Shown: positions 553 to 21,475 of the stretch, in pieces
Numbering within the stretch: position 1 is the stretch's first letter
How the letters are laid out: every line of letters starts with the position of its first letter
Assembly (NCBI GenBank): GCA_963971425.1
Contig: OZ020524.1
Coordinates: 18,231,845 to 18,295,844, forward strand
Source of the DNA: Bryoerythrophyllum caledonicum
Taxonomy: Eukaryota; Streptophyta; Bryopsida; Pottiales; Pottiaceae
Direction of reading: 5' to 3'
Length of the DNA stretch: 64,000 bases
Notes under the pieces: generated by a model
The model's input: only the letters and a program-made list of their open reading frames with translations
Database searches by the model: none
What the model was told of the DNA's origin: nothing
Program-made: the position numbers and the translations under genes

Positions 553-1464
553 ATGCACCTATGGAATAAACGGTTTGGTTATATGAATTATGCTAGTCTC
601 CAACATTGTGCCAACGCCAAGCGAGTAAATGGGCTTCCTATCTTTCCTACTATAAGGAGTATCTGTGGCGATTGCTTGGCAGGAAAACAACATAGGGAGC
701 GCTTTCCAAAGGAATCTATCAACTGCACAACTCAGGTACTACAACTCATTCACTCAGATCTTGTAGGTCCCATTCGTACCCCGTCATATAGCGGTTCACA
801 ATAATTTATAGTCTTTACAGATGACTACTCAAGAAAGAGCTTCATCTACTTCATGAGGAGTAAGAGTGAATCCTTTCGAAAATTCATAGAGTTCAAAGCT
901 AGAGTTGAAAAAGAAACTGGCAAAAATATTATGACACTTAGAACCGACAGAGGGGGGGAGTATCTTTTGCATGAATTTGCAACCTACCTAGTACACCATG
1001 GCATCCATCACCAACTTACCATGGCACTCACCCCTGAACAAAATGGTGTTAGTGAACGTAGAAATAGAACCATCATTGAAAAAGCACGAACCATGTCTAC
1101 AACTAGCAAACTTCCTGGATATCTATGGACAGAGGCCGTTAACACAGCCAACTACCTAATCAATATTAGTCCTACTCGAGCCAATCATGGCATCACTCCT
1201 GATGAAAAATACTACAACATCAAACCGTCTGTTAAACATCTTAGAGTATTTGGAGCCTTGGCATATGTTCACATTCCAGACACTAGAAGATCCAAACTTG
1301 ATAGCAAAACCTTTCCGAGCATCCTCCTAGGCTATGACAGTCAAAGCAAAGGTTACAGACTCTTTGATCCTCAAACCAAACGCATCCATTGTAGCAGAGA
1401 TGTGGTATTTGATGAAGATCAAATTGGACTTAATGTTATCCCATCAAAGGTCAATCCCCGATGA
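553..1464 (+). pseudogene. Copia GAG-pre-integrase and integrase
   Basis: LWNKRFGYMNYASL matches the GAG-pre-integrase zinc region, but the usual His residues of the HRRLGH-type motif are changed to N and Y. The integrase core triad is visible as IHSDLVGP, LRTDRGGEY and NGVSERRNRTIIE. A TAA at 802-804 breaks the frame between the first Asp and the rest of the core. The frame ends at TGA 1462-1464 while frame 2 takes over the downstream linker, which indicates a frameshift. The protein would have joined cDNA to the host chromosome; this copy cannot make it intact. Confidence 0.9.
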
Positions 1465-1465
1465 T

Positions 1466-3217
1466 ATTGAACTATTTTCCGAACCCTCAGACTCAAACTT
1501 AGGTGACCCCACAGATCATTCACCTATGCAAGATCCATCAGCCGCTGAAGAGGATCCACCGTCACCTCCTCACGCAGCTCCAGTTGATCAACCACAAAGA
1601 TATCCACTTTGCGAACGACGTCCCAGTACGAGGTTCAAAGACAGTTACCTCTTCTCCGCAGAAACGGGGACATTTATTGAACCTCGCAACTACAACAAAG
1701 CCATCAAACACCCAGGCTAGAAAGATGCTATCCAACAAGAGGTTGATTCAATTAAAGAAAATGACACATGGAAATTAGTAGACCTACCTCCTGGCAAACG
1801 TCCAATATCTGCAAAGTGGATATTTAAAACCAAACCTAGACCTAGCGGCAAAATTGAAAAACTTAAGGCTAGGCTTGTGGCTCGAGGATTTGAACAAGAA
1901 GAGGGTATCGATTTCTTTGAAACATTTGCCCATGTGGTTCGTTGGTCTACTATTCATAGCGTAGTTGCACTTGCTGCAGGACAAAAATGGAAAATACATC
2001 ACCTTGATGTTAAGACTGCCTTTCTAAATGGTGAAATTGACGAGGAAGTCTACATGACCATCCCCCCTGGATTTGAAAATAGCGGCAAGGTGTGCAAGCT
2101 CCAACGAGCGCTATATGGCCTCCGACAAGCCCCTCGAGCCTGGTATGGTGAAATTAACGCCTATCTTCAACAACAAGGACTCACAAAGAGTAAAGAAGAA
2201 TCTAACTTTTATTTCTCTATTCGTGATGGGAAATACACCTTACTTCTCCTATATGTTGATGATATTATTCTAACAGACGATGACCATGAAAACATTGCTA
2301 ACCTTGACGCACAGTTGACAAGACAGTTCAAAATGACACACCCTGGAGACACACAACTATATATTGGTGTTGAACTACTCTACACTGATGATGGAATTTA
2401 CTTTCACCAACGAAGCTATATTGAACGCCTACTTGAGCAGTTTGGAATGCAAGACTGCAATCCCCTCTCCGCACCCATGAACTCCAAGATCAAATTATCG
2501 AAAGACACAAACACAAATCCCGTAGACAAACTTGTCTACCAGAGTCTTGTAGGTGGATTACTCTATGCTACTATAAGCCGCTGGGATATACAATATGCAG
2601 TCAGTTGCGTCTCTCGCTATATGAGCAATCCTCAACAAGCACACTTGACTGCCGCAAAGAACATTCTCCGCTATCTAAAAGGGACACTCAACTATGGCAT
2701 CTTTTATCCTTCCAACGATACTGGAGAATTATTCGTCTTCACAAATGCGGACTAGGCAGGAGAATCAGACTCACGAAGATCAACCTCTGGCATTTTATTT
2801 AAACTAGGCTCTTCTCCAATTGCTTGGACTAGTAAACTACAACCCACCCTTGCCTTATCTTCCACTGAGGCTGAATATCGTGTTCTTTCAAAAGCAGCTC
2901 GTAACATCACCTACTTTCGACGTCTCCTAGATGAGCTAAAACTCAGTAGCCCTTCTCCTACCCCTATCTTCTGTGACAACATTAGTAGTATCAAACTTGT
3001 CCGTAACCCGGTAATGCATCAGAGAACTAAACACACCGAGTTAGAACACCACTATATTCGAGAGAAATATATTGATGGCTCAATAGTTATTACATATGTT
3101 CCTTCTCATCACCAAGAGGCAGATTTACTCACTAAACCTTTAGCCACCAACCCATTTATTGCCAATAGAGATCTTACAGGTCTCAAACCTATACCATCAT
3201 ACCATATCTCTATGTAG
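1466..3217 (+). pseudogene. Copia reverse transcriptase and RNase H
   Basis: Frame 2 reads the Copia RT signatures: KWIFKTKP, LVARGFEQEEGIDFFETFAHV, LDVKTAFLNG, and the catalytic YVDDI near 2251. RNase H follows with TNAD, SSTEAEY and the C-terminal [17 protein letters not shown] at 1718 sits where a Trp precedes the conserved KDAI block, and another TAG at 2753 replaces a residue right after the RNase H TNAD motif. Both are single nonsense lesions. The last stop at 3215-3217 is probably the natural end of the polyprotein. Confidence 0.92.
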
Positions 3218-4106: not shown

Positions 4107-4136
4107 ATATATGCTGTATTTAACTATTTCTGGACT
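4107..4136 (+). repeat. Left terminal inverted repeat
   Basis: Begins ATATATGCTGTATTTAAC and ends in TTTCTGGACT. All 30 bases match the reverse complement of 21446-21475. A short part (TTCTGGACT) recurs at 4146-4154 just inside. Confidence 0.93.
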
Positions 4137-4331
4137 ATGAGGTGAATTCTGGACTAAGGACTAAAAGAAAGATCCGGAGATGTGCCTCATAAATGAGAGT
4201 GAAGCGTAAAAGCCGAGGAGTTTCGTGTACTTTCCAAGCATTAAATGCATCACCAATGACACTTATGAAGGAAGAAATGGCTAGAGCGACCAAATTTGAA
4301 TTTAGACAATACGTGAGTCCGGAACATGCAG

Positions 4332-4517
4332 CCGGATATCTCCGGGTGAATATCAAAGTGGAAACCAGAAGAAGAACCGAGTCCTGAAAACAGAAATTAA
4401 TGGACATACGGTACATCACAAATGTGTGGTTGGGAAACATGTGGAAGGAAAAAACGGGACAGAGATGCGGACAGAAATTACTCGCAATTGATAGAACATG
4501 CAACCGGATATCTCCGG
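4332..4517. repeat. Two end-proximal palindrome variants (CCGGATATCTCCGG)
   Basis: Sites at 4332-4345 and 4504-4517 read CCGGATATCTCCGG, one base off the perfect palindrome. Their upstream flanks are also alike (ACATGCA before both), so the two lie in a short direct repeat. A half site CCGGAGAT starts at 4174. They are the palindromes closest to the left TIR. Confidence 0.85.
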
Positions 4518-4633
4518 ATGAAATCAGAGTAAGAGTCCAGTACTAAACTGTTTCATTATAAGAAAGTGTCATACAAAATATGAAGGGTAGCCGTTGATAA
4601 GAGGCGCGTGTAATCTACGGAGAATCGAATCAA

Positions 4634-5086
4634 CTATTCTAATTTTAGTGCTTTACAGATGCCCTCTACCCGTCCTGTATGGTGTCTCCCATATGTTAGA
4701 TAATGAACTATAGCCTTTCTAGGATTCTTGAATGGATCTAGATCTGCAACAACAACAGATTTTGGCCACAAATAATGCCTTGTTCTAGGATTAAATGAGG
4801 CCTTCTTAAAGATGTGGAGAAACCTAACATAGCTGGGCCTTCGAGTCTGTTTGCTGGCATAGCAAAAAAGAATATCTGATAAGATGTCTGGGGGCAATAA
4901 CACTTGGGCCGCCTCCATGAGCCTATCTGGACGCATAGGAGACCAGATCCCGACATTGAAATACCGCAGTAGTATTCGAATAACATCTGCGGTGTCATCA
5001 AAGGAAGGCAGCTGCGCGGATCGGGACTTGGCCGAGTCAAGGACCTCGTCCGAGCAGAGAGGACCACGGAGAGATATGATTATGAC
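4634..5086 (-). CDS. Degenerate FCP1/NLI-type HAD phosphatase domain (second copy), probable terminal exon
   Basis: The exon starts after a good acceptor (TATTTCGCAG at 5087-5096) and ends at TAG/TAA 4634. It reads 150 residues. Landmarks of the plant NLI-interacting-factor-like HAD family are present in order: a hydrophobic strand where motif I should be (VIIISLRGPLCSD), then VGIWSPMRPDRL (motif II region) and KSVVVADLDPFKNP (late acidic motif). The nucleophilic Asp of motif I is replaced, so phosphatase activity is unlikely. The reading frame is phase 0 at its acceptor and would fit the donor at the end of the neighbouring HAD domain (5477/5478). The intervening 391 bp holds one palindrome site, as do several other introns of this unit. 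It may therefore be the last exon of the ParB-like gene or a separate captured gene fragment. Confidence 0.55.
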   Translation of the reverse strand, partial: VIIISLRGPLCSDEVLDSAKSRSAQLPSFDDTADVIRILLRYFNVGIWSPMRPDRLMEAAQVLLPPDILSDILFCYASKQTRRPSYVRFLHIFKKASFNPRTRHYLWPKSVVVADLDPFKNPRKAIVHYLTYGRHHTGRVEGICKALKLE

Positions 5087-5177
5087 CTGCGAAATAGATG
5101 GCACGACCATAGAATTAGAAATTGAACATTGAAAAGAAGAGAAAATATGGTAGGAGGAACTGAAGTCACATCCTAGA

Positions 5178-5191
5178 CCGGAGATCTCCGG
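5178..5191. repeat. Exact palindrome site CCGGAGATCTCCGG
   Basis: Exact 14-bp copy, lying in the inferred intron between the two HAD domains. Confidence 0.95.
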
Positions 5192-5477
5192 GTGCCCCTC
5201 CCAGACCAACGTTCTGCAGTGGAAATGGTCAGACCAAGAGTTCATAGATATTAACTTCATAGATATGAACTTAATAGAGTTCATAGATATTAAGGGTGAA
5301 GTTTGGGGGCGAGACACCAACAATAACAAATAAAATGAAGGACCTCAACAAATAACGTTACTGACAAGAACATTAGTCTTCAAAATTGAAAGGTCAAAAT
5401 CCGACAGACATTCATGACGAAACATTTACAAAGCATAGAGTTAATACTATCCAGTATATTTCATTGTTCTAAGGCAC

Positions 5478-6142
5478 CGAAATTATGCCCTTCACCACGG
5501 AGCGAGCCTGAGTGGAATTTTTGTCTACTGGATCACTGGCAAACTTCAATTGATTCCGTCTAACAAAGTCGGGAACATCCTCATTTGACGCTAGTAGTCC
5601 GGAGAGCCATGGGAGAAACATGGTGGTCAACCAGGCTTCACCCGAATTCCCAGTCCATGATGGCGGATGAACTGCGCTGAAGGGATCGTTAAGGATGTTC
5701 TTTAGTGGGGTATCGTCCACAAGCAAGACATCCTTAGGAGATGTGGACGACGCTTTGCTATTATAAACTGTCAGGTCCTTTAGGAAAATTGGCTTCTTTG
5801 GCTGAGATGGAAGCATTTATGATGTTTTTGTGCAATCGGCCTGTGTCAGGATTCTGGCGCCTTCCGGAATGGTAGCACCTTTCTTGCGCAACTCCTTGAT
5901 GATATCCACAATATTCTTTTCCAGTACACTGCTCCAGAATGAGACAGTAGCCTTCTCTTCCACGAAGTTCAGGATTTCAGTGGAACCAGGCCTTACTTTG
6001 ATGTCTCTCGGTTGTCCCTGTTTAAATTCCCCCCTGTGCACAAGAACTCCATTTAAGTCAAACACGACATGATAAACCCGTTGTTGTGTTACCTGATCCT
6101 CGATTGGAGGCTCTCGGACGATCGTCGTAAACTTCTTCAGAC
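5478..6142 (-). pseudogene. FCP1/NLI-type HAD phosphatase domain (first copy) with an in-frame stop
   Basis: The family landmarks run in order: VVFDLNGVLVHRG (motif I; DxDx is changed to DLNG, with Asn for the second Asp that normally acts as acid/base), VSFWSSVLEKNI (motif II), ADCTKT, KKPIFLKDL, DVLLVDDTP (acidic motif) and NSGEAWLTTMFLPWL. Plants have a family with a DLNG-type motif I, so that change may be inherited. A TAA at 5817-5819 lies in the same frame between ADCTKT and KPIFLKDL, in the middle of the fold; no phase-compatible intron removes it. It begins after an acceptor (GGGTTCAG) at 6143 and ends at a possible donor at 5477. The family dephosphorylates phosphoserine proteins such as the RNA polymerase II tail; this copy is probably inactive. 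Likely captured from the host. Confidence 0.7.
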
Positions 6143-6303
6143 CTGAACCCAAAATACGAGTACGTCGGCTGAGATGAGGAACTTGTACAGCTTAGAGAAA
6201 TTGCAAAGATACATATAAAAGTGTTCCGCACTCAGAACCCATAAATGCTGGATGAAAGAATGAGCACTATATAGATGATGGCACGTAAGTATGAATGTCC
6301 ATA

Positions 6304-9300
6304 TTAGGCACCTGGGACAGTAGGTGTAGTATCCCTAGAAGTCTGAGCTACACCAGCGACTTCAGCAGACTGTGCGAGGCTTCTGCCACCGACATCCTTC
6401 GACTGTGTTGATCCGGCCGACACCTGAATACCAGTAATGTAGTGGTAAGAACACGGTCTGAAGAGAGTGCACTGTCTTGAGAACAATCAAGAAGGTTTGA
6501 TGGACAAGTAACTGTTCACCTTATCTTTTTGGGCCCTTGTCCGAACTGTAGGCGGAGGAGGAGGAACTTTCGGCACAGGATTCTTCGCGATTGCCTTCTT
6601 CTTCTCTTTTTGAGCCAGCTGCCCGTGGCTCCGTGGAGGGCTGCGCGGAGGGCTCATAACCTGTAATTCACGCAATGTTTGTTGCGCCGATGCCTCATCC
6701 ATCGTGTGATCAGTGTCACGCAAAGTCAGGTCCTCGGCAGTCTTGGACACAACCTCCACTTCAGGACGCGTCGTGGAAGGGTTGTCCAGCGGGAGATCTC
6801 CGGGTTCTCTGTGGGTGTGGTCGAACTCCAGGCGATCGGACATTGCCGTGTCATCGTCCAGATCTGGCGGAGGAGAACGTTGCCTATCGGAATGCGAACT
6901 GGTTTCCATTTGAGAGGGACGCCGTCTACTGTCCAGAGTAGAGTCGCTTGTTGAACTAGGCGAGGCACGCCCGACAGCAAGATGTGGTTCATCAACGTTT
7001 ACCTGCAATGGGTCGATTGGGGTGCCCGCACCGATGATCCGAGCGGCTGTAGCCAAGGACTTGAGTCTAAAATTGGAAACCGCTGATGAACTTGGTTCAT
7101 TCCGCACATCAACATCAAGCATCGTGGCATCAGTCGTCTGCGTCACATTGACGAAGTCAGTGTGGACTACATTAAGACGCAATACGAAATAAAACGGTAT
7201 CATACACCCGGAGATCTCCGGTTCAAAGTTGTCCGAGTCTACCGAGGGAACTAAAAATAAACATGGCAATGATAAAGACGAGTCCTAAGGAATGGAGGGC
7301 ATCCGAATGGAATAAACATCCGGAGATCTCCGGGTCAGGTAGTATCCGTAGGCGTTATACCTCGCCGGTGTAATTTATCCTCGACATAGCCCGTGTTTGA
7401 ACTCCAGCGGCTTGGGTCGACCCAGTGATGTCAGTCTCCAGTAACTCCTCAGGATCGGTGTCGGTAACGTCAGCTAAGATATTCAAGTGGAATTTGAATA
7501 TTTGTTCTGCGCAGGATTCGGCATTTACTTTGGCATCTTCGCTGTTCACAATCTCGAGGACCCGCGCGTCGTGAGTCTGCAAACCAAAAAAAAATTAGGA
7601 CGGCGATATCCAGTTCATATAACTGTATGCGGACCGGAAATCTTAGACATTGGATTGCTTGGGAAGGATGTCTTGCTTACCAAGCCGAGGTATGTAATAT
7701 GTGGTCCTCCATGAACATTGACGACCACCATACCCTCTCTGATGTATCCCGTGAACAGCGAATCGAGGACCGAGATCCTCAGCTGTGGGACACCGGTTTG
7801 CTTCCTGCGCTGGATGGTTTCTTTATGTTGAGCGGCTGAAAAGAAGGCCGGCATTTTTTCGGGGTGGCCTTTGAAGAGCCTCTTGAATGACTGAGCAAGC
7901 GTCTCGCTTGAATCGTATTCATACAGGAATACGCAGTATACTGTCTCCTCGACCCCAATTACTGGAACCGGAAATCCATCACCAGGGTGTGGGAAGTAGT
8001 AGACGACATGCGTTGCCCACAATTTTACCTTGCCTCTGGCCTCTCTCTGCCGAAGACTGATGTACCTCATTAATTCAACGAATCCTGCGACGTCAGTGAT
8101 AAGAACTGACGGTGATCTGACCCTCGTCCGCCCGTCCTTCGTGTCCACTTCGAGATGGTCGAAAATGGTTCTGAAGTCAAACACATCGAGCACCTGTGCA
8201 CGGCATATGTCGTCTTTAACGCAGTAAAGGAAAAAGAAGTAAAAGTGAGGGTCAGTGACGTTACGCCACTGCTGAATGTTCGGCATAATAAGTACTTCGG
8301 CGATCTCGCCCCCTCTGTCAGGCATAACCCTGCAGGTGTATTTGGAGTCGAACAGGGACGTATCATCCGTGGGTATGGCCTCGGCAGCATCTTCAATGAT
8401 GTGTTGACTCCAAATGGACACGAGGAAGTCTGGAGTGGGGTCGGTATCCTTGTTTATCGCCTTCAGTCGACCCTCAAGCCAAGCTTTACCCTTGGCAGAG
8501 TGATTAGCGGCGTCGACCCAGGACTCGAGCTGGACCCTTCCAATATTCCTCTCTTCGGCAAATGCGTCCCACTGCTCCTTCGTGTATGGGACGAAGTCAG
8601 CAGACTTCGAGGGAAGGGGGTGCGACTTGTATTTAAGCATCAGTTCATTCTTCATTGCACGGACTCTCTTCTCTCTGTTCGCCACGTTTTCGAGAGTCTC
8701 CGCCTGCCCTTTCATAGTACCCTGGTTTGCCGCTTTGGAGGACTTCACACAGACCTTCTTCTCGAGCACTAATTCCGCGAGGTAGTCTAGGTCTTCAGCG
8801 CGCATTTTGTAAAGAGGCTTGAAGTCGTTCTGCACCAGAGGTTTCCGCTTCAGCTTAGCTGGGTCCCCCGTCTTCCCGTTGGAGTCTGGTAAGACTCCAG
8901 TGACGAACAGCCTGTCGATTCGGATCCACTTCTGGACCACCGCATCATCCATCTCGAATAGAAGTGGGACCTTCGCATCTTTGGGGTCTGTTTTACCGAG
9001 GTGTGTAAAAACCGTTGGCACCACTTGCCGTTGGAACGTCTGCAATGAAAACAATTACAGGGTGTAAGCAGCCGGAGATCTCCGGATGATTGGTTTGGTT
9101 GCTGTGAGGATAGAGCACATCCACGGAGTAAAAAATATTTTCAGGTTGAGAATGTATATTTACCGAGAATGCGTCAGATTGAGGACGACCATATAGTTGG
9201 GGGGCTGGTTTACCGAACTCAAACCACTTCACTCTGCACGTCTGCAGCTGCTCAGTGAAACTCTGCTCCTTCCGCAAACCCGTCAGATCTTGGTTAAGAG

Positions 9301-11478
9301 CGCGCGAGAGCTGTAGCAGGGTCATGTCTTTGGGGTCCGGTTTTGTCCAAACCGGGATGATAGAGAAGTGGGAGATCTCTTCGAGCGTCCACGTTGCTGG
9401 CAATTCGTGTGACAGAACCTTGTGCGCCGCCACAGTATGCTGACCTCCGATAATGTAAAAGTGTGTCGAGTCCCTCAGGCAGTCCTCCTTCGTCGGCTTG
9501 GTCGCGAAAAACTCTACCTTACTTCCTTCAGGTTTCTTCTTCAGTGGCAGGACTCGAATGTGAATCTCAGGTGCCGTGGCCTTCGAAGACGCGCGAACTG
9601 CGTTGATAATTCCTTCAAGCCGTTCTTTCTGGATGCCCCTGTATACTAATCCTCCAGGGGGGGCCCGGTGCAGCTTATCAAAATGAACGAGCTTCACGAC
9701 ATCCTTCTTCGTGTCAGGGTCTTCTACTGTCAAAGGCTTATTATTGTGTATGTAAACGTTTTTGAACGCGTCGTCGAGTACCTTACCAATTGCTTCCACT
9801 TCAGTCCGCTTCATTTTGGTGAGGTCAGCCTGTGTGAAGTTCAGGCACCTTTCGATCGCGAGGGCAGGCTCATCGGCCTTCGCTTTTTTCCCCTTCTCCG
9901 CCCGCGATGAAGAACCTGGGGTCGAAGTCTTCAAGGTGGTCTTGCGTTTTCTTGCCAAGGTCGATGCTGGTGTCAGAGACAGACTGGGAGTTGCGTCAGG
10001 AACGGGCATTCGGGACTTCTCTTGTGCTTCAGCCATCCACTTCCACTGCTCATTCACGTACTCCGGATACCACGTATCACCCGTTGGAGGGGCAAATAAA
10101 AAGTTCTCACTCTGGCAGGTCTCCACCATCTCATCCGAAATCTTAGATGATTCTAGGATCAAGCCATATATATGTGGCTCGGTGGAGGAGTCCACGTTCT
10201 CCTGGACGATAACGAGACTGACCTCGTCATCAAGACCCTGCAACTCGAGAACCTGGAGTCCAATGTCGGGGTGACCCCGTTTGCCAATCCGAAGTTGAGG
10301 GACGAATTCCCAGGCACCGTCAGGGTTTTTTATGAGCTTGATGCCCCACTCGGTTATGCTCTTTCGGCAATTGTATACGTAGCCGACATTGTGTATCCCT
10401 CTGTAGACAAACTCAGGGAGCCAATACTCTACAAATGCCCCAAGTTTCCCGGGTCGACATTCAGTCGGAAGTGTGGATGTCCACGAATCCCTGCAAGATG
10501 ATTTTGAAAGAACAAGCAGGCAGTTTAGAATCGATGCAATTGTCTGGTCAATAACAAGAATCCGAAACATAATCACCTCACAAGTTCCTAGATGTTGAAA
10601 CCATGAATCGTGCTTCCAAATCTGTATCACAGTGCCAGCAGGGGACAGTTTCCGGAGATCTCCGGCTGATTTGGGGAAGTCGAGTGCATCCGACAAGGAA
10701 CGAATCCTGGCTGCTCTGACGGGTCTATTTCTGACCTGAACCGGAGATCTCCGGTTAATGACCCCTCAACGCGAATTTCCACTGTTTCGATACGTCCGGA
10801 GATCTCCGGCTGCTTTCGAGAATAACTAACGCCTGTATAGGGTTTACATATTCCTCTGATCGCTACATCATCCGGAGATCTCCGGCTGATTACTGGAACT
10901 CCGTATTTTCAGCCGGAGATCTCCGGCAGAAGCACGTACGGAACTTCGAAGCACTAATCGGATCATATCAGGACTCGAATATTTACATTCATTTACAGAG
11001 AGGTTTGACGTATAACTCTTGAAGTTTGACATACTTAAATAACAAGTTACATAATTGAGAACATAAATACATTTATCAAATGAGCTCACACAATTCTGTT
11101 ATAACTCGACCTTACACACTAGAAGAAGAATCCGCTAATGTTTCGATGGAACGCCAAATTTGACGACTCTACATGGATTAAACTATATACATTGAATCGA
11201 ACCAGACTCGACAGACTCAGTGAGGAACAACACATTCAAACATTCATGGAATTCCAAAATCATTTGCATATTCATGAATAGATATACAGATATGTTCACG
11301 GGACAACAAAAAACCAATCGACTATAGCCAAACAGACATCGGAATTCTAGTACGCATTTTTTGAGGTTTTTCAAAATCATTCAAGTGTGCCCGGACTGAG
11401 CATAAACAGTTCAATTGTGTATACTTACCGGTTTCCATCCCACGCAGTCTCATTCCACGTCCCTGCTATAGTCGCCAT
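6304..11478 (-). CDS. ParB/sulfiredoxin-like domain protein of the 17.4-kb element (about 1229 aa, spliced)
   Basis: My exon model (minus strand) is 11478-11429, 10490-9164, 9039-7681, 7576-7361, 7137-6520 and 6423-6304. All junctions are GT-AG and keep frame. The start is in a strong plant context (GAAATGGCG) and its donor is GTAAGT. The protein has an N-terminal globular region, a basic stretch (about 197-221, NLS-like), then a ParB-like region (about 300-430) with IIGGQHTVAAH at 363-373 and ALNQD at 414-418. These resemble the GxxRxxA and ENxQR-type boxes of ParB and the related sulfiredoxin fold. Exon 3 encodes an unrecognised domain ending HGGPHITYLGL. The C-terminal 250 residues are low-complexity, rich in S, P and K. 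Four introns lack coding signals, and two of them plus intron 1 contain the palindromes. An alternative start at 10696 would read through intron 1 sequence. Function inferred: element-encoded DNA-site binding or nuclease factor. If the last exon is spliced at 6312, it continues into the HAD domains. Confidence 0.72.
6790..6803. repeat. Degenerate palindrome site inside a coding exon
   Basis: Reads CGGGAGATCTCCGG, one mismatch at position 2. It lies in the low-complexity exon of the ParB-like gene and is read as PGDLP on the minus strand. Confidence 0.7.
7208..7333. repeat. Two exact palindrome sites in one intron
   Basis: Sites at 7208-7221 and 7320-7333, both exact, inside the inferred 223-bp intron 7138-7360 of the ParB-like gene. 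Confidence 0.95.
9072..9085. repeat. Exact palindrome site in an intron
   Basis: Exact copy inside the 124-bp intron 9040-9163, whose donor (CG|GTAAAT) and acceptor (TTGCAG|AC) are clear and phase 0. Confidence 0.95.
10652..10926. repeat. Cluster of five exact palindrome sites in first intron of the ParB-like gene
   Basis: Sites at 10652-10665, 10741-10754, 10796-10809, 10872-10885 and 10913-10926. This is the densest cluster in the element (five in 275 bp). Three are followed by CTG, as are several others. The inferred intron 10491-11428 holds the whole cluster, so it may act as an intronic regulatory or binding array. Confidence 0.95.
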
Positions 11479-11696
11479 TTCGCAATCTCCTCCAGTAACT
11501 GCTCTGGATTAAAGCGTATACACAACTCTGCAGTACATAAGCATTCAACAACTCAGAACGACAAACTATACAATCTCTCAAATGCCCTAGAATGTATGGT
11601 CCAGTTCTGACATATAGGAATTCGGTGGAACAAATTTCAACACTGCATAAATTGCTCAATTACGGCCCTTCGAAACTGAATGCACAGAAAACTAGA

Positions 11697-11714
11697 ACCC
11701 TAAACCCTAAACCC
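11697..11714. promoter_or_regulatory. Telo-box-like CCCTAAACCC motif upstream of the ParB-like gene
   Basis: ACCCTAAACCCTAAACCC lies about 220 bp upstream of the inferred start codon at 11478. Telo-boxes are known in the promoters and 5' leaders of plant genes expressed in dividing cells. Its role here is inference. Confidence 0.4.
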
Positions 11715-12563
11715 TTCTATTTCGCTCAAACGATTATCAACATCAGTACTATTCGACTCTCTCGAACCCTAATGAAGCTTACCGAACCCTACACCTGCTC
11801 CAGTGACGATTCTATGAAGTCCTGTGCAAATTCAACTGAAATTTCACTGAAAGCCATTTTTGAGACTTTACATACCTCTTCACTTGCCGAATCGGCGCAC
11901 CCGTACGTCGTGGTCGTTCGTGTTGACGCCACCCTCAACCGCAACGTCGTTCACTCTTGGCTACTGAACCTAGGCGCTCTTCAAATTTCTTCCTAACGCA
12001 TTCGCTCTCTTTCAGTCCTACTCTCTGACCTTCAGTCCATATCCAGTTAACAACCTCTCCACGGCACGCTCAATGTCCCTCACATAAATCAACACTCACC
12101 TCGCACACCAACAGCCTCTTACAGCGCATACGAAACTAACCTAATGCGTCGACGCCCACTCCGCAAACCAAGAAAGAAAACCCCTCCCGCAACTTCCGCT
12201 CACTACCTTCGACATTACGAAGACAAAAGCCAAAAAAAATCAAGAAATGGTTCATTCTTGGAGTTCCCAAAACCCAAAGAGGACAAGCTGGACGGCTCAA
12301 GGGTGTGACGGCTCATGATGACAGTGGGTGAAGTTAAAAATCAGCTGAAAAGACGTACATGTACAACATGTCCATTTCACAATCATGACATTGTCAATGT
12401 CGTGAGCATGCGTGAGAAGACGTATTGATACCCGGTTTCATGGGTATTAGATATGACTATAATAGATACTCGGGTTCACCGGATATTAGAGTAATAATTA
12501 TACTTGAATTTAAAACGACATTAGTGGAAAAGCTGAATCTCCCTTTCCGTTACTCTCCCTCCC
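11715..12563. other. Intergenic DNA in the element's centre, left part
   Basis: No coding signal stands out. The plus-strand open frame 11592-11996 overlaps the leader of the divergent minus-strand gene and has no recognisable domain. A good minus-strand donor (GAG|GTATGTAAAG near 11880) suggests an upstream untranslated exon. From about 12,420 the sequence turns AT-rich. Confidence 0.4.
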
Positions 12564-13833
12564 TTCTTTCCCTCACTTGTTTTTCTTATTTTTGTTTTAC
12601 TCTCCCCTCCTTCTCCATCTCCATCTCTTTTTTAATCTTGATTCTAATATTTTTTAGACTCCTCGTGATTCCAATACTTACACATTCTATAATTAACTTA
12701 CTACTCTAAAAGAATCCCTTACTCTCCCTATTTTACTCTTCCTCGCCCTTACTCTCCCTCCCCATCTCTTTTTTACATTTGATTTTCTTTTTAGATTCCC
12801 CTTATTACATATTCTAAAAATATAAACTACTCTAAAAATAAATCCCTCAAGTCTCTTCCTCCCTCCCTAACTCTCCCTCATACTTGTTTATTTATTTATT
12901 TTAGTTTTACTCTCCCTATTTTATCTCAATCTCCATCCTTAGTTAATAATATTGAACTATTGTAATAGTATTTTTTTACTATCCTATTCTTTCCCTCACT
13001 TGTTTTTCTTATTTTTGTTTTACTCTCCCCTCCTTCTCCATCTCCATCTCTTTTTTAATCTTTGATTCTAATATTTTTTAGACTCCTCGTGATTCCAATA
13101 CTTACACATTCTATAATTAACTTACTACTCTAAAAGAATCCCTTACTCTCCCTATTTTACTCTTCCTCGCCCTTACTCTCCCTCCCCACCTCTTTTTTAC
13201 ATTTGATTTTCTTTTTAGATTCCCCTTATTACATATTCTAAAAATATAAACTACTCTAAAAATAAATCCCTCAAGTCTCTCCCTCCCTCCCTAACTCTCC
13301 CTCATACTTGTTTATTTATTTATTTTAGTTTTACTCTCCCTATTTTATCTCAATCTCCATCCTTAGTTAATAATATTGAACTATTGTAATAGTATTTTTT
13401 TACTATCCTATTCTTTCCCTCACTTGTTTTTCTTATTTTTGTTTTACTCTCCCCTCCTTCTCCATCTCCATCTCTTTTTTAATCTTGATTCTAATATTTT
13501 TTAGACTCCTCGTGATTCCAATACTTACACATTCTATAATTAACTTACTACTCTAAAAGAATCCCTTACTCTCCCTATTTTACTCTTCCTCGCCCTTACT
13601 CTCCCTCCCCATCTCTTTTTTACATTTGATTTTCTTTTTAGATTCCCCTTATTACATATTCTAAAAATATAAACTACTCTAAAAATAAATCCCTCAAGTC
13701 TCTCCCTCCCTCCCTAACTCTCCCTCATACTTGTTTATTTATTTATTTTAGTTTTACTCTCCCTATTTTATCTCAATCTCCATCCTTAGTTAATAATATT
13801 GAACTATTGTAGTAGTATTTTTTTTTCTATCCC
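12564..13833. repeat. Three tandem copies of a 423-424-bp CT-rich repeat
   Basis: The block starting TTCTTTCCCTCACTTG recurs at 12564, 12987 and 13411. The copies are almost identical apart from single-base changes. The + strand is rich in C and T (many CTCTCCCT runs). Near identity suggests recent amplification. It is non-coding in all frames. Confidence 0.93.
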
Positions 13834-14448
13834 ATTCTATTACATTATTCAAATTAATGCATAGGTTTCAAAGATATATTCATATTTTATGTAGATTGTT
13901 GTTACCTTTTTTCTTAAATACTTTGTGATATAAAAACTACATGAAAATGGTTGATTTAATGTGTTACAAACCAAGAGCCAACTCCTAGTCATACTACTAA
14001 AATCATAATTTGTGCAGTAAACCACGGAGTGAACTATCATGTAGTCAACCATGCAGTGAACTACAAAAACGCTACAATCAACTGCGTTGTCAACAATATA
14101 GTGAACCATTCCACCTTTTACTTTTTAATACTTTTTAATATTATAAATACATAAAAATGGTTGGGCTAATGCATTGCAAAGCAAGCGCCAACAGCTAGTC
14201 TACTCTAAAATTAAATCCATTACCCTCCTTCTCTTCTTTATTCTCTCTCTAACTAAATTATAATGTATCAAAATAAATAGTTATTGTTCAATTCTCGCTA
14301 AATTTCCTTACACTCTATAGTATCCAGGTTTTTTTTAAAAGTTATGGTTATGGATAAACTTAAGGTTATAGTTCATAGTTATAAAATATTTTTAATTTAT
14401 ACATTTATAGGTGATATAAGCCCTCAACCTTCATGAACTCAGACCCCT
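13834..14448. other. AT-rich spacer in the element's centre
   Basis: No gene or recognisable RNA. A short sequence (TTTTAATATTATAAATACATAAAAATGG type) echoes the flank at 13,900-13,960, showing old local duplication. Confidence 0.35.
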
Positions 14449-14662
14449 CCACGGTGAACCGTGAACCCTGAATCCTTAACCCTAAACCCTAAAACCGTGA
14501 ACTAGAAATCGTGAACCCTAAACCCTAAAACCGTGAACTAGAAATCGTGAACCCTAAACCCTACACCGTGACAACCATGAATCCTAAAACCTAAACCCTA
14601 AACCCTAAACCTAAACCCTTAACCGGACACATTAAACCCTAAACCCTAAACCCTAAAACCCT
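14449..14662. repeat. Interstitial telomere-like CCCTAAA repeats
   Basis: Imperfect runs of CCCTAAA (plant telomere repeat TTTAGGG on the other strand) alternate with copies of ACCGTGAACTAGAAATCGTG, which occurs at least twice. The array lies in the spacer between the two divergent genes of the element. Confidence 0.85.
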
Positions 14663-15723
14663 GATGCACAATCCAGCCTGAACACGGAAGCTGTACCCGA
14701 ATTCATAGGACCGGGTTGCTATACTTCTAAAAGCATCTGCTCAGTTATTTGTGCACGTTTCTTCTCAAGCATCCATATAACTTCTGTCGAACTAGGCAAT
14801 ATTGGAGATTATTCTAATTGGTAACGAACGCCGATGTTCTACTTGAGTCATGTATTGCCTGATGAACAATACTAGTAGGCAGCAGAGGGCCGTCTCCTTT
14901 CCTTGGGTAGGGTATAATTTAATTAACAAAGGTGAGTACGAGAAGTCCTGTACGATTACATTTTACTGTGATTTAGTCTAAGACGTGATACGGCCCTAGT
15001 ATATTCAAAGATACATCATGGGGCATACTTCATCATCCGTTTTCAAATTTGCAGCACTCTGGGAACTAGATGGTATCCTTACAATACGGTCATCCCATGA
15101 GTACGAGCCTTTCATTATCATGAGTGGAATGTGGCCTCGGTCGTGGGCACGTCGAAGAATGCGCACAATCATGATGGTGTACAGCAGTTAGTTTGAAGGA
15201 GCATGCATGCCCAAGATTCGTTTCAAATTTGAGCGCCTGAATTTTCCCTCCACGAGGTGATGGAAAGGTGGATAAGAGTATCCTTCAACTCAGCTCTCCT
15301 CCTTTTTTGCTCAGGATGTTTGAGATACTATGGGAGCTAAGCGAGTCAGTGACAGTGTTCGCTTGCGCGACATCGTGCTAGATAACTGTAGGGAAACGAA
15401 TCGACATTATTCCAGGAATGTTCAGTATGTTCCCTCGTATAATTCCGTATTCGCAGTCTGTCTGTGAGGATTGGTGAAGATTGTGTTGCATTCTGTCCTC
15501 TGAGTCGATCGGGAGCTCTCGAGTAGAGATTTTTAAACTAATTCGTCTCCGAAGATACAGTCATAGCCCTGAAGCAGTAAATATATTCGACTCGAGTATA
15601 TTGATGACGTAATTGCTTGGCGTGTGAATCCGAACTGTTTACCGGGTTCTGCAACTGTATCACACCGCCAGACCCGCGAATATTCCGTACGGCTGTTGAT
15701 TCGATCAAGGCCAAAAAACTCAA
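14663..15723. other. Putative promoter/leader region of the + strand gene
   Basis: No convincing coding frame. Base composition is more balanced than the tandem-repeat region. It ends at the palindrome cluster 15724-15933 just upstream of the start codon at 16032, so it is probably promoter and 5' leader. Confidence 0.35.
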
Positions 15724-15933
15724 CCGGAGATCTCCGGCTGTTCATGCCGTGCTATTCTAGATTCTGCCAATCTCGCCCGGTAACCACGGTTTCACCCCTT
15801 GATTCCAGTGGCTGTCAGAATCATCGAGAGCAGGATTCCCGGAGATCTCCGGCTACTTCTGTTTTGTTCTCTCTCTAAATCATACAAGTAGTCGTCGTTC
15901 TTGATCATTCTCCACTCTGCCGGAGATCTCCGG
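15724..15933. repeat. Cluster of three exact palindrome sites upstream of the transposase-like gene
   Basis: Sites at 15724-15737, 15839-15852 and 15920-15933, ending 98 bp before the start codon at 16032. The spacing to the gene suggests autoregulation by a site-binding protein; this is inference. Confidence 0.95.
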
Positions 15934-16031
15934 CTATCCCTGACGAGGATATTGAGGTTGGTCATCCAAATCGACTCTACATACACACAATTTCTCATTC
16001 AGGACATCAGCCACCAACCGAGATTCCACCG

Positions 16032-19000
16032 ATGCAGAACGGGACTATGTCTGACTCAGATTGGTGGGAGAGTGACTCGGAAGACCTTGCCATGGTCGTA
16101 GCTCATTGCTCCGATTCTGGACATGGGAATTTCACGGAAGAAGATGATCCATCTCAGGAGTCTACAGGAAGATCGGAGGTCCTGTGGTCAGGAATGTCCG
16201 TGAACCTTATGAGGCCAGGTTCAGGCGAAATTGGAGAAGCGTCCATTGTTGAGGTTCACCCCATGGGTCAATGGCTTGGAGTTGACATACCAGTCGGATC
16301 TAGTGAGTTCGTATTACTTAGACCAACGGCCATATGCCCCGCGGCGGAAGAATTACCACTCATTCCTTTGCAACACGGATACGATTCACTTATTCACACA
16401 CTCCGGCGGACCGTTTTATGGAGAAGGGCGGATGTCATGATTCCAACCGGAGATCTCCGGTCCGTCGAGTCCCCATTCGTACCACGAGAGCGATGGGTTG
16501 GACTTGAAGTGCAGCGGTTGGACGGAGATGGTTTGGTGCTCTGCTCTGGGAGAATCATGGCCGCTTTCCCAGCAGATCATTTCCGAAGTGGATGTTTGGG
16601 AGAAGATAATATTGGTGTAACTGTCCTTGATGTTTTTGTGGGAGACACGGAGAGAATTATGAGTCATGAGTCGTGGCCCATTCTTGAATGTTGTTTTCCT
16701 TCCGGTCGTTCTTTGAAATGCACAATTGATCATTTCGCATCCCTGCCCTTAGAACCAGATTCTGGCGCTCATTTGGGGGGTCGTGCGAAGGAGCCTTACC
16801 GCTTCATTTCCCGACAGCAAGACCTTAACAAGAAGGAATCCTTGTACACCAAGAGGACTACCGACGACGAAATTCGCAAAGTCAGCCCGGAAAGGTGCTG
16901 TCCCAAACGATGCTGCCAGTATTTTCAACAATCCCAGACTCTTTCTGTTAGACAGAAATTCTATGACAAATCCTTTGAAGATAGAAAGGAGTATGCGATC
17001 TCGGTAGGTGGGCAGTTCCACTCCATTGATGGGGACCGGAAGAGAAAGTACGTCACGCTCTTGGGAACGGAGGTTTGCTCCGTTGCATGGTACACGATCC
17101 ATGGAATTCGGAAGTCCACGTTTCACACGTACATCGCACATTTCAGTAGAGGAATCATTAATGCAACTCACGGTAACAAGGGCATCAAGCGCCCACGGCT
17201 TGCCACTATACAGGCGATGGGCTCAATGACGTCGATTATTAATGACAACGCGGATCAAATGCCTCACCAAATGCGGAGTGTCGGGAATGGTCGGATTGAC
17301 ACTCTCAAGTATCTTCCTGCGGGAAACAACTGGAAGCAAATTCGAGCCAGCGTCAATGATGTACGTTATCAGTCCCCGCATATTGCAATGGATTTGTACT
17401 CTCCTTGCTCCGTCGACCGATGTCCAAGTATCTTAACCGGAGATCTCCGGCTGGGTCATCGTTGTTCTGCATTGACCTTCAATTGATTTTCTCTGTACTT
17501 CGCACCGTCTGTTGGATTGTACTTCTAAATTTTTCCTCTCACTAGGCTAAATTTTCATTTTGCAGACAAACGACTCCTATGGTCTCCCTCCTGTAAGTCA
17601 GTCCACAGTTAGTAGGGTAAGGAAGGAATTCTTCGGGAATGTTGCTATTAAGCCGTCTGGAAGCACCTTCGCAAAATGCAGTACTTGCGATGAGTTCAAT
17701 CAGTTCTTACTGACAACTCCTAAGGGTACGCCCGCATACGAGCTCTTCTATAGCAACAGGCAAGCTCACTTGAATCACCAACAATCATGCCGGAAGCTTT
17801 ACGCGACATGGAGGGAGGAGTCGAAGGCGAAGCCGCTGACCTTTCTCTGTGTCATTCACGACAAGATGGACACTGCGAAGACGGCCCTTCTACGCATGTG
17901 GAGGACTACTAAGGCGACATCTGGTCTCGGACAGCTTCCCATGAATGTCACCGGAATGGTGGCTCACGGTCATGTCGACGGAGCGTATGCTCACTATGCT
18001 CCTGCTTTATGGCCGGGAGATTCGAACGCCACCATATCCTCTCTGGCAAAACTTTTTAGGCGGCTTGAGGGAGCACCATTGCATGAGACGCGTGCGCTCT
18101 TCGAGCACCCTCCTCCAAACTCGATGTTCGCGGCGCTCATGAGGGGAAAGAGCAGGTGTGTCGACGCTTTAGAGCCCGTGGAGCCCAGTGCTTTTAAGGG
18201 ACCGAAACCGTTGCCACCGAAATTGTTTCTGCAGCTCGACAACTCAGCGAAGGACAACAAGAACCAATACTTGATGGCATTCTTATCACTGCTAACTGCT
18301 CGAGGTGTTTTCAAGGAGATACAGGTTGGCTTCTTGGTTGTCGGACATACGCATGAAGATATTGATGCTTACTTTAGTCATCTATCGAAAGAACTGAAGA
18401 AAAGCAGTACATATATTCTAGCGGATTTGATGAAGGCATTCATGAAGTCACAGAAACTAGCCTTCATGCCGGAAGTTATCCAAGAGGTGGCCGACTTTAA
18501 ATCTTACGTCGATGGCTTCTTATGCAGTGGGGCGGCACGTCTGGTGGGACTTAGTGATATGCATCTTTTCAAGTTCTACGTTGACAATGATGGTGTTCCG
18601 GTCATGAAGTTCAAGAAGTCTGCCGTTGACGCAGAGTGGTTGCCGATGAACAGAGAGCCGATAAAACTCTGGAAGGTAGATGACAGCGGGCGTCCCATGC
18701 TTCCAACAGGCTCTCCGAAGCCCGTCCCTTTCAAGCCCATATGGGGTAATGAGGAGCAGAACCCGGTCGGAAACCAAGATGTTGCCAGAGACAAGGCCAG
18801 AAAAGCGACAGAGAACAAAAACTTCATTAAGACGGGGCTTCGGAAGTACGTGGACTACTGGGCGTCTGGAATGTCAAAGTGCGCAGGTTACGCAGACTCC
18901 ATCCGCCCATACCTGCAGTACTGGAGGGACGTGATCGACGAGCTTGACAAGCCACTTCCACAGACGCCCTCCGAGCTCGAAGAGGGATTCTGGCCTGCCC

Positions 19001-19503
19001 ATGATTGGAGAGGCGCTCATGAGGGAGGTGGAAATCCGCTAGGATCGCTTCCACAACCATTGGATGTCACCCCCGAAGATGAGGTTCTCGAGCCTTACTG
19101 TGGACCCGCCAATGAAGCCCCAAAGTCCACATTTAATCCTTGGCGTGATATTCGTCTCGGGTCCTGGATTTTAGTTAGACCTAGTGATCCAGACATCTAT
19201 CCTGTCTGGCAGGGTAGAGCAGTTTCGGACGTCGTCAGGGATGAGGGTAATGTCAACCACGGAAAATTCCTCGTTAAGTATTGGGAGCCTCATAACAAGC
19301 AGAAGAATCTGAAGCGGAAGTACCAGGACTGTTGGGAAGCCACTTGGGTTCCAGACCAAGAGAAGCCTGTATGGTGTCATGTGAGTTCTGTTTTGTTTGC
19401 GACTTGGTCTAGCAAAGTTAACCAACTCACGAGATCCATTCCACGTAAAATGAAGGAAGCAACGCTTGTGAACTTAGAGAAAGCGAATGCCGCTGACCCT
19501 TGA
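16032..19503 (+). CDS. Candidate DDE transposase of the 17.4-kb element, DUF7869-like (about 1088 aa, two exons)
   Basis: Exons 16032-17360 and 17566-19503 join in phase 0 through a GTACGT...TTTTGCAG intron that contains a palindrome site. Order of regions: N-terminal acidic stretch; unknown region; CSVAWYTIHGIRKSTFHTYI (about residues 355-375, helix-turn-helix-like); a Cys pair (KCSTC, near 481-484) and a later His/Cys pair (HLNHQQSC) that could bind zinc; then VIHDKMD (D542), FLQLDN (D668) and VVGHTHEDIDAYFS (E707). These three blocks are spaced like an RNase H-fold D-D-E core. I recognise the LQLDN and VGHTHEDID blocks as the DUF7869-type signature from memory, not from a search. The C-terminus has a W-rich beta segment. 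It is intact, divergent from the ParB-like gene, and the best transposase candidate in the element. Confidence 0.75.
16447..16460. repeat. Exact palindrome site inside coding sequence
   Basis: Exact copy within exon 1 of the transposase-like gene, read in frame as TGDLR. It is the only exact site inside what I consider coding sequence. Confidence 0.93.
17437..17450. repeat. Exact palindrome site in the intron of the transposase-like gene
   Basis: Exact copy, in intron 17361-17565. Confidence 0.95.
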
Positions 19504-20469
19504 TACGGTGATCAGTCCCGATACCTAAAATTCTGTTCTGTGAAATTCTGTTTCTGAAAAATCTCGTCGAGTCTCTTCGTCCTCACGGAGGAGCACCGGA
19601 GATCTCCGGCTGTGAAGACTATTATTTTCTGGTCCAGACTTCGACATCCCTCCTATCAGCTCTCGCCACTTTTCGAGAAGAGAACCGGATTTGAGCTCTT
19701 CCATTCACTGTTATTAAGATTCATTGAGTAGTGACACAATTATTATTGACTGGTGTATTCCACCGGAATATTTTTAGACCTGCATATCTCATAGGACGCT
19801 TACCGGAGATCTCCGGCTATGGAAGACAAATTTCGTGGTCGGACGAATGTTCATGTATTGCCTTGTTCAAGTGGGTGAGATCTAGCCGGAGATCTCCGGA
19901 TACGAGATTCACATCTACCATTCTTAACAATGGGGTCCACATTTCCCAATTTTGAGCTTCCCTAGGTGTTCTGAATATTATTGAATCATATCCGGAGATC
20001 TTCTGTGACTACGATACTGCAATTTCTCCATCAATGGAACTTGTTTCAAAATGACAGAAACCTTTTTGGCATTCTCCTGGCTGGTTCCATCTTTGATTTA
20101 TGTCATGCCACTGCTAATATGAAAGTGGGCGGTCAATTACACACTTAATATCAGTCATCCGAGTTCCATCATTTGATTGAAGTGATGCTGATGGTTGGCG
20201 GCGGAGATTGTACTTCTCACATCTCATTATCACAGGACGTTTGACGCGTGGCCTACCATGTTGTTCGTTCATGAATTTGGCATCTGCCATTAAGTCCATC
20301 AGTCTCGGTGTTATGGCGACTTAAATCAATGTACCTACGCTCGAGAAGTGTAGTTAGTGGGTGGGTGGGGAGGATTGTATAAGAGTGGGTTCAGGGCTGC
20401 AGTAATCCATATGTTTTGTCTTTCAACCATAAGTCTTCTTAGGCCATAGCCACGGTGGAGAGAGAGGAG
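19504..20469. other. Intergenic DNA between the + strand genes of the element
   Basis: Holds palindrome sites 19596, 19803 and 19886 and no convincing coding frame. It must contain the 3' end of the transposase-like transcript and the promoter of the short acidic gene. Confidence 0.5.
19596..20005. repeat. Three exact palindrome sites and one half site
   Basis: Exact copies at 19596-19609, 19803-19816 and 19886-19899. At 19992 the sequence reads CCGGAGATCTTCTG, with an intact left half and a broken right half. Confidence 0.93.
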
Positions 20470-20907
20470 ATGGCCTTCGGAAGTAGAAAGAGGGAGAGGG
20501 ATGTCTCTGATTCGGTAGATAGGAGAGTTTCACGAAGGATGGTGAGCGAGGCTCAGGGTTCGGAGAAGGGAAGACTGCTTTTCTTACAAGTCGAGTACAG
20601 AAGGGAGATCTGTTCCGATCGGCGTGTTCTAGACGAATTGGAGGATGACGCTGAGAGCAAGTTTGTTCAAGAGGAGGACTACGGCATCGACTGTGATGCG
20701 GAGGACGAGAAGCAGATCGACTCCGATGTGGAAGAGACCCTTGATAGAGCTGCTTCGGTTGAAGAAGAGGTGGAGGACGACCCCTGGTATGAAGACGAGG
20801 AGGAATCTTCTTCGGATGGCGGCTGCAGCCCATTTCAAACTGGGTGTGACACAGGGTCTGATGTCGATTCGGATATGTACGCACCGGCTCACTGGAAGGA
20901 TCTTTAG
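20470..20907 (+). CDS. Small acidic protein of the 17.4-kb element (145 aa)
   Basis: I choose the ATG at 20470 because it has a good plant context (GAGATGGCC); the open frame extends 15 bases further upstream without an ATG. The first 35 residues are basic (SRKRERD, RRVSRR), NLS-like. The rest is strongly acidic, with runs of D and E and a WYEDEEESSS segment. No domain is recognised. It sits between the transposase-like gene and the right TIR, on the same strand. An acidic nuclear partner protein or transcription activator would fit the composition, but that is a guess. No intron is needed. Confidence 0.55.
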   Translation: MAFGSRKRERDVSDSVDRRVSRRMVSEAQGSEKGRLLFLQVEYRREICSDRRVLDELEDDAESKFVQEEDYGIDCDAEDEKQIDSDVEETLDRAASVEEEVEDDPWYEDEEESSSDGGCSPFQTGCDTGSDVDSDMYAPAHWKDL

Positions 20908-21093
20908 AGCTCTTCAGAGAGGTTGTGCAAGGATAGAATTTGTTGTTAGATCCACGAATTTTGCTCAGACCAGTCACTGCTTTTTCCTACATTTGGTCTT
21001 GTATCAAACGCTTTTGTAAAGAGACTTCATTCCAGAGTAGCATTGTCGTTTTTGAGCAGCCTAGCAATTATATTTTTAGTACTTTGCTTTCGA

Positions 21094-21344
21094 CCGGATA
21101 TCTCCGGATGTCTGAACGGCATTCCTTGCATGTCAATGCTTCAAGCTCTGAAATGCACTGTACTCATCTTCTACACGATATTACCACAGAAATGTACAGT
21201 ACACTATATTACATGGTTGTTTTATAAACGTGTTAGCTTGAAAGTTGTTATCATTTTGTCGATTACGACGAACGAAATTTCACGCTTGTTTTATCACTAT
21301 ATTCGATTAGTCATGTATCACTGAAACCATCCGGAGATATCCGG
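21094..21344. repeat. Two end-proximal palindrome variants, right side
   Basis: 21094-21107 reads CCGGATATCTCCGG and 21331-21344 reads CCGGAGATATCCGG, which is its reverse complement. These are the two palindromes nearest the right TIR and carry the same one-base variant as the two on the left. The rest of 20908-21427 shows no gene. Confidence 0.88.
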
Positions 21345-21427
21345 CTGAATGATTAAAATAAATTAACTGGGTATCCCTTTCATATTCTTTGGTGCGACTA
21401 TTTTACGAGACTAAAATCCTTCTTCCT

Positions 21428-21457
21428 TATTTCTGGACTTTGCAAAGTCCAGAAATA
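21428..21457. repeat. Perfect 30-bp palindrome overlapping the right TIR
   Basis: TATTTCTGGACTTTG is followed directly by its reverse complement. The inner part of the right TIR is thus repeated in inverted orientation just inside the element. The left end lacks this hairpin. Confidence 0.92.
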
Positions 21458-21475
21458 GTTAAATACAGCATATAT
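21446..21475 (-). repeat. Right terminal inverted repeat
   Basis: Begins AGTCCAGAAATAGTTAAAT and ends in CAGCATATAT. All 30 bases are the reverse complement of 4107-4136. Confidence 0.93.

Follow-up and report, generated by a model that had tools for sequence, protein, structure and literature searches.

A multi-copy terminal-inverted-repeat transposon of Bryoerythrophyllum caledonicum with a two-class palindrome system and a candidate accessory DNA-binding protein

A stretch of 64,000 nucleotides of the Bryoerythrophyllum caledonicum genome (assembly GCA_963971425.1, 437 Mb in 894 contigs; contig OZ020524.1, forward strand, positions 18,231,845–18,295,844), referred to here as the window, contains at positions 4111–21471 one copy of a multi-copy transposon with terminal inverted repeats (TIRs). 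The transposon family carries a palindrome system of two classes, with the palindrome CCGGAGATCTCCGG in the interior and a one-base variant, CCGGATATCTCCGG, towards the ends, as well as two divergent genes, one of which presumably encodes the transposase, whereas the other is predicted to encode a long protein with a ParB/Srx-like region. In this green plant, the family appears to be a high-copy group of Sola-like DNA transposons that move by cut and paste.

The borders of the element were set by comparison with other copies and are listed below together with the target site duplications (TSDs).

4111–21471: whole element, 17,361 bp
4107–4110: left TSD, ATAT, the same as at 21472–21475
4111–4136, + strand: left TIR, 26 bp, perfect in the alignment of both ends
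21446–21471, − strand: right TIR, 26 bp, overlapping a 30-bp perfect palindrome at 21428–21457
21472–21475: right TSD, ATAT

A repeat search of the window gave inverted arms at 4107–4139 and 21443–21475 (33 nt, 97% complementary), and the alignment of the two ends comprises 26 perfectly matched base pairs followed by one mismatch and two more matches. The preliminary description, made from the letters of the window, had given the TIRs as perfect over 30 bp; these are in fact a 26-bp TIR plus the 4-bp target duplication ATAT, which is its own reverse complement and hence merges into the inverted arms as their outer 4 bp, and the borders are accordingly moved to 4111 and 21471. The target duplication was thereby defined by mapping the insertion junction, as the same description had suggested. 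The 30-bp palindrome is built from the inner part of the TIR and was observed at the right end alone, so that the two ends of the element are not equivalent; in a sister subfamily, the left end starts with ATGCCCAATTCA. The 4-bp duplication is exact in 23 of the 24 copies counted and agrees at three of four positions in the remaining one (10 of 11 exact for the window copy and ten fetched copies, and 13 of 13 for further copies), and one more copy, outside this count, has the duplication AATG. The duplicated sequences include ATAT, TTAA, CAAG, ACAA, AAAG, GGTG, TAGG and ACTA, and this variety argues that there is no fixed target. The TSDs are 8 bp long in KDZ and hAT elements, 2–3 bp in CACTA and 3 bp in Harbinger, and the targets of piggyBac and Tc1/mariner are TTAA and TA, respectively; all six groups are ruled out by the varied 4-bp TSDs.

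The ends recur at many places in the genome. The left 200 bp and the right 250 bp of the element were used as queries, and the best 40 of 283 left candidates and 40 full-length candidates of 302 right ones were listed. For 32 of the 40 left ends listed, a correctly oriented partner stands among the listed right ends, at a distance of 16.2–34.2 kb (less than 19 kb in 29 of the 32 pairs), and the other eight have no partner there. Ten more whole copies were fetched, with lengths of 16.5–17.8 kb and an identity to the window copy of about 97–99% in long aligned stretches, and the family has probably been active recently. That host genes had spread by segmental duplication, with inverted ends arising by chance and no transposon involved, might be considered in view of the open reading frames (ORFs), which contain no classical plant transposase domain above the Pfam cut-offs; however, the near-identical ends, the exact 4-bp duplications of varied sequence and the location of the 32 end pairs on at most 11 contigs, with unrelated flanks, leave this explanation with practically no probability. 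Chance inverted ends are excluded because the same ends recur and pair in this way, and the segmental duplication was rejected on the target duplications and the pairing. The earlier proposal that TIRs, genes and palindromes form one mobile unit is thus borne out, since TIRs, target duplications and many copies agree; the genome searches that it had recommended yielded further full-length copies with the TIR ends and multiple matches to each of the two genes (best 68 of 4,508 candidates for the DUF7869 exon and best 91 of 1,344 for the ParB-like exon). No sign of a viral origin was found when nine ORFs of the element were compared with Pfam and four of these with PHROGs and NCBIfam (chance-level hits only, E 0.31 and 0.044), and a search of viral contigs for relatives returned none.

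The palindromes are distributed over the element as follows.

4332–4345, + strand: subterminal variant site, CCGGATATCTCCGG
4504–4517, + strand: subterminal variant site
10652–10926, no strand: cluster of five internal palindromes (within 275 bp), in the first predicted intron of the ParB-like gene
15724–15933, no strand: cluster of three internal palindromes, preceding the predicted start codon (ATG) of the transposase gene
19596–19899, no strand: three internal palindromes, beyond the 3' end of the transposase gene
21094–21107, + strand: subterminal variant site
21331–21344, − strand: subterminal variant site

The element contains 17 exact CCGGAGATCTCCGG sites, whereas the rest of the window has no match even with up to two mismatches allowed, and in the whole genome there are 2,718 exact sites compared with three for a control of reversed letters; the palindromes had been described as a family private to the element, and these counts agree. 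The variant CCGGATATCTCCGG occurs 663 times genome-wide (364 + 299) compared with none for the control; where copies were checked, it lies in the subterminal regions. In the window, the four outermost of the 21 sites are precisely the four variants, for which the chance is 1 in 5,985. Two degenerate sites were kept out of these counts: one at 6790, within predicted exon 5 of the ParB-like gene, has one mismatch, and one at 19992 has two. All but one of the 17 exact sites are outside the predicted coding exons (binomial P 0.0004), and four of the seven predicted introns contain sites. The single exact palindrome in a predicted coding exon, at 16447–16460 in the N-terminus of the transposase, is identical in 11 of 11 copies.

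The same layout is seen in other arrays, which were matched site to site with the window by hand. The first 50 CCGGAGATCTCCGG places listed all fall in four arrays on contig C1, one of which comprises the right half only, and in none of the four does a variant lie within the span of the internal sites. Three arrays have spacings of 172, 187 and 172 between the two left variants (window, 172), and three have 238, 237 and 237 between the two right ones (window, 237). In the array at C1:1.56M, 13 of 15 intervals between sites are within 3 bp of those of the window. The array at C1:3.74M has 16 sites in the order of the window, with nine of 15 intervals within 3 bp, several changed non-coding spacers and the site of 16447–16460 in register; its exons are absent from the best-scored DUF7869 and ParB-like lists, and it is probably more diverged than the listed copies. 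The array at C1:6.77M has 11 sites with looser spacing.

The preliminary description had also recognized two divergent multi-exon gene units, with which the ORFs and the splice phases agree, the splicing of both genes being predicted. The exons are listed below; N/S denotes nonsynonymous relative to synonymous changes, each per site, among 11 copies.

16032–17360, + strand: presumed transposase exon 1 (predicted from the gene model), N/S 0.56
17566–19503, + strand: presumed transposase exon 2 (predicted) with DUF7869, Pfam E 2.7e-45, N/S 0.30
11429–11478, − strand: ParB-like exon 1 (predicted, beginning MATIAGTW), with fitting splice phases
9164–10490, − strand: ParB-like exon 2 with the GGQHT box, from motif alignment, N/S 0.24
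7681–9039, − strand: ParB-like exon 3, without any Pfam hit, N/S 0.33
7361–7576, − strand: ParB-like exon 4 (predicted), N/S 0.49 on eight changes
6520–7137, − strand: ParB-like exon 5 (predicted), proline- and serine-rich and probably disordered, N/S 0.61
6312–6423, − strand: ParB-like exon 6 (predicted from the gene model)
5469–6142, − strand: ParB-like exon 7 (predicted) with an FCP1/NIF domain of the HAD type, Pfam NIF E 1.9e-7, in-frame stop at 5817–5819

The predicted protein of the plus-strand gene has 1,088 residues plus a stop, and the gene is free of internal stops in eight of 11 copies. This DUF7869 protein is presumably the transposase and would act on the TIRs. The gene had been called DDE-like; it encodes a DUF7869 protein, and its DDE/D nature rests on the anatomy of the element and on a weak match to DDE_Tnp_ISL3 (E 0.043) below the Pfam cut-off. 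A sequence search against the PDB gave no match, and DUF7869 is named in none of the open-licence PMC papers searched.

The minus-strand gene was modelled with seven exons running from 11478 to 5469 in compatible phases, the start of exon 7 at 6142 being taken by eye from acceptor sites and sequence, and would encode one protein of about 1,450 residues, in which a ParB/Srx-like region would be followed by an FCP1-like domain at the C-terminus. Exons 1–6 are free of stops in seven of 11 copies. In the window copy, the stop at 5817–5819, where the ten other copies all have a sense codon, splits the FCP1/NIF domain into a first half with 31.3 bits against a Pfam cut-off of 21.8 and a second half, in a separate ORF, that falls short of this cut-off (17.8 bits, E 0.0027). 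Of the captured HAD domains reported previously, one FCP1/NIF domain is retained rather than several, and the gene model joins it to the ParB-like protein. The ParB/Srx-like assignment is suggestive and is taken as a lead only: with hhalign and a profile of 11 ParB proteins, the box HFYIIGGQHTVAAHKVLS was aligned with YDIVAGERRFRAAKLAG of Spo0J, and the reversed sequence as well as other stretches of the element proteins scored lower. A search of the predicted protein for the methyltransferase motif [DNS]PP[YFW] gave only EPPI, a degenerate fold still being possible, and no Pfam methyltransferase was found in it.

The two genes travel together. For 53 of the 68 DUF7869 exons listed, the ParB-like list contains a divergent exon 7.5–25.8 kb upstream, and among the listed pairs within 40 kb none is in a non-divergent arrangement; the 15 DUF7869 exons without a listed partner are uninformative, as the ParB-like list holds the best 91 of its candidates. 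The core exons of both genes are under purifying selection, as seen from the N/S values of ParB-like exon 2, DUF7869 and ParB-like exon 3. Between the window copy and the diverged copy L079, the ParB-like stretch 9164–10570, which includes up to 80 bases that the gene model assigns to an intron, has a nonsynonymous divergence (dN) of 0.072 and a synonymous divergence (dS) of 0.387, with a dN/dS of 0.187. For the FCP1 part and two small ORFs of the element there is no clear constraint, on small numbers. Among the copies compared, C>T differences per site amount to 0.083 in CG, 0.097 in CHG and 0.039 in CHH contexts, the pattern that methylation of the copies by the host would produce, and most stops within degraded exons are TAG, which would arise from CAG methylated in the CHG context; from this bias and these stops, the host probably silences the element copies.

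The likeness to Sola was drawn from the TSD (4 bp) and the perfect 26-bp TIR; a DDD transposase also belongs to the definition of Sola, and the presumed transposase here matches DUF7869. According to the account of Sola in PMC10741241, these elements have 4-bp TSDs and TIRs of 11–1124 bp and occur in the moss Physcomitrella, for which a Sola1 is also listed in PMC9033089; most are 2–9 kb long and some exceed 15 kb, so that the present element, at 17,361 bp, is unlike most of them. A closer parallel is Sola1-1_Ec32 of Ectocarpus, presented in PMC12477816 as a Sola-1 element of 21.5 kb with a ParB-methyltransferase gene (1,104 residues) on the opposite strand, where it is suggested that such ParB-like proteins can bind the transposon that encodes them and alter it epigenetically, and where green and red algal parallels are cited. 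Like Sola1-1_Ec32, our element is a giant DNA transposon with a long gene, here tentatively ParB-like, opposite to the transposase strand; in contrast to the Ectocarpus protein, the predicted protein contains no methyltransferase motif or Pfam hit. It ends in FCP1/NIF, and the host is a green plant. The earlier statement that no plant DNA transposon with this combination had been described is therefore true only in a narrow sense, in view of the Ectocarpus element and the algal parallels given in that source (PMC12477816). For such ParB-like proteins, no described recognition site was found in the searches of open-licence PMC papers. The present family supplies a concrete candidate site with thousands of occurrences, linked to the family in the places examined, and because this site is split into end and interior classes and is almost solely non-coding, the idea of self-marking can be tested directly.

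VANDAL elements with VANC have a Mutator-like transposase and a long TSD, whereas the present element has a 4-bp TSD, DUF7869 and no Mutator-like domain hit. The TSDs of Mutator are 7–12 bp long (PMC10741241). The likeness to the anti-silencing system VANDAL21/VANC of Arabidopsis (PMC5735166, PMC10398659) concerns the accessory protein: as reported in PMC5735166, VANC21 is targeted within its own element to introns and to non-coding DNA between genes and at the termini via a private motif, the 9-mer YAGTATTAY in same-orientation arrays, to which binding was demonstrated. Here as well, a private motif lies chiefly in the non-coding DNA of the element and the element encodes a candidate binder; here, however, the motif is a palindrome, and its binding is proposed.

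We propose that a Sola-like cut-and-paste element encodes an accessory protein that regulates the element, or lifts its silencing, by binding to the palindromes, in analogy to VANC of Arabidopsis, and consider this reading to be about evenly balanced between right and wrong. The DUF7869 transposase would act on the TIRs, and the ParB-like protein or, with less likelihood, the transposase would bind the CCGGAGATCTCCGG sites in introns, gene flanks and intergenic DNA as well as the subterminal variants; such binding may control how the element is expressed, synapsed or silenced. The likeliest single role of the ParB-like protein would be sequence-specific anti-silencing; the layout of the palindromes in introns, gene flanks and terminal non-coding DNA resembles the measured distribution of VANC21. 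Anti-silencing or regulation by the ParB-like protein is ranked first and palindrome binding by the transposase second.

Some plant elements have subterminal and promoter sites that are bound by their transposase. In the present element, the four variants near both ends, with the nearly fixed spacing that recurs in other arrays, would suit such binding, as would an N-terminus of 442 codons to which Pfam scans assigned no domain, with the ParB-like protein having another role; however, 17 of the 21 sites are internal, across introns and flanks of both genes, and the TIR has a different repeated motif, which leaves this alternative possible but clearly the weaker candidate. Binding by a host factor, or an action through RNA or chromatin without any element-encoded binder, would be in keeping with the conservation of the palindromes, which is not in excess among the 11 copies, but CCGGAGATCTCCGG is rare outside the family as far as checked, and the confinement of the first 50 places to four arrays is ill-suited to a general host site; we regard this explanation as unlikely.

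Partition or cohesion as in the bacterial ParB/parS system, in which the ParB-like protein would load at the palindromes and spread or bridge copies, is suggested by the likeness of the palindromic sites and the ParB-like box, with its marginal similarity, and by the five sites clustered within 275 bp. The element is, however, a eukaryotic transposon without a ParA hit among the nine ORFs scanned, and the arginine that closes the GERR box of Spo0J, which is tied to classical spreading dependent on cytidine triphosphate, aligns with a threonine in the ParB-like box, arguing against such spreading; a parS-like role seems very improbable.

Several observations weigh against regulation by a ParB-like palindrome binder. 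The alignment to the ParB profile has a P of 0.053 for the window copy and 0.037 for L079, and nine of 300 shuffles scored as well or better, so that the name ParB-like given previously is kept as suggestive only; Pfam gave no ParB hit in this protein, and tblastn with its core against plasmids and phages gave no match. AlphaFold models from single sequences failed for both the ParB-like core (predicted local distance difference test score, pLDDT, 33) and the DUF7869 exon (pLDDT 37). The FCP1 part has an N/S of 0.97 over 5472–6131 (25 changes), indicating no constraint. The bases of the sites are polymorphic at 17 of 280 positions, compared with 410 of 6,832 for other non-coding positions among the 11 copies, and show no excess conservation. 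Of the 2,718 palindromes, the first 50 places and those in fetched copies were examined, and the location of the rest in copies is an assumption; should all palindromes be located in copies, the site counts correspond to about 160–210 copy equivalents.

A more elaborate form of the proposed regulation is speculative and rather doubtful in our view: a ParB-type module combined with a domain like the phosphatase of the RNA polymerase C-terminal domain may constitute a self-marking system, in which the gene-body class and the end class of sites would be read apart, copies would be kept transcribed despite CG and CHG methylation, and ends would be told from the interior in transposition.

The remaining features of the element are the following.

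4634–5110, − strand: small ORF of 158 codons, status uncertain, with four synonymous and eight nonsynonymous changes (N/S 0.63) and no Pfam hit
12564–13838, no strand: 424-bp tandem array between the two genes, three units in the window copy, the number varying among copies
20470–20907, + strand: small acidic ORF of 145 residues, status uncertain, N/S 0.81, no Pfam hit

The acidic ORF is uninterrupted by stops in 10 of 11 copies. A probe for the 424-bp array has one to four exact matches in eight of the 11 copies, including that of the window, and none in the other three, in which BLAST still aligns array sequence; the varying number of units accounts in part for the length differences among copies. 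Two copies of 26 and 34 kb between matching ends (G000:C7:13248268-13274439 and G000:C2:10653855-10688076) possibly represent nested insertions. After the minisatellite of 424-bp units, a degenerate telomere-like AACCCTA array lies at 14457–14662, also between the two genes.

Directly to the left of the element, fragments of a Copia-type polyprotein occupy several frames at 805–3217 (+ strand); RVT_2 was matched at 1721–2755 (E 2.3e-70), and the other fragments were recognized by eye from the ORF translations. To the right, a class-V aminotransferase domain is found at 29541–30620 (+ strand), with an upstream ORF at 28126–29139 without a Pfam hit, and an ORF for an SNF2-family helicase at 40688–42430 (− strand), the adjoining ORFs of which resemble its further exons. 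Elsewhere in the assembly, rbcL is present on three small contigs (C821, C590 and C894). A stretch of 309 residues from one of them has its best PDB matches among the Rubisco entries of pea, spinach, tobacco and rice, which together with the CHG decay points to a green plant. On one of the three contigs the open frame is longer and the score differs slightly, possibly reflecting two plastid types or contamination.

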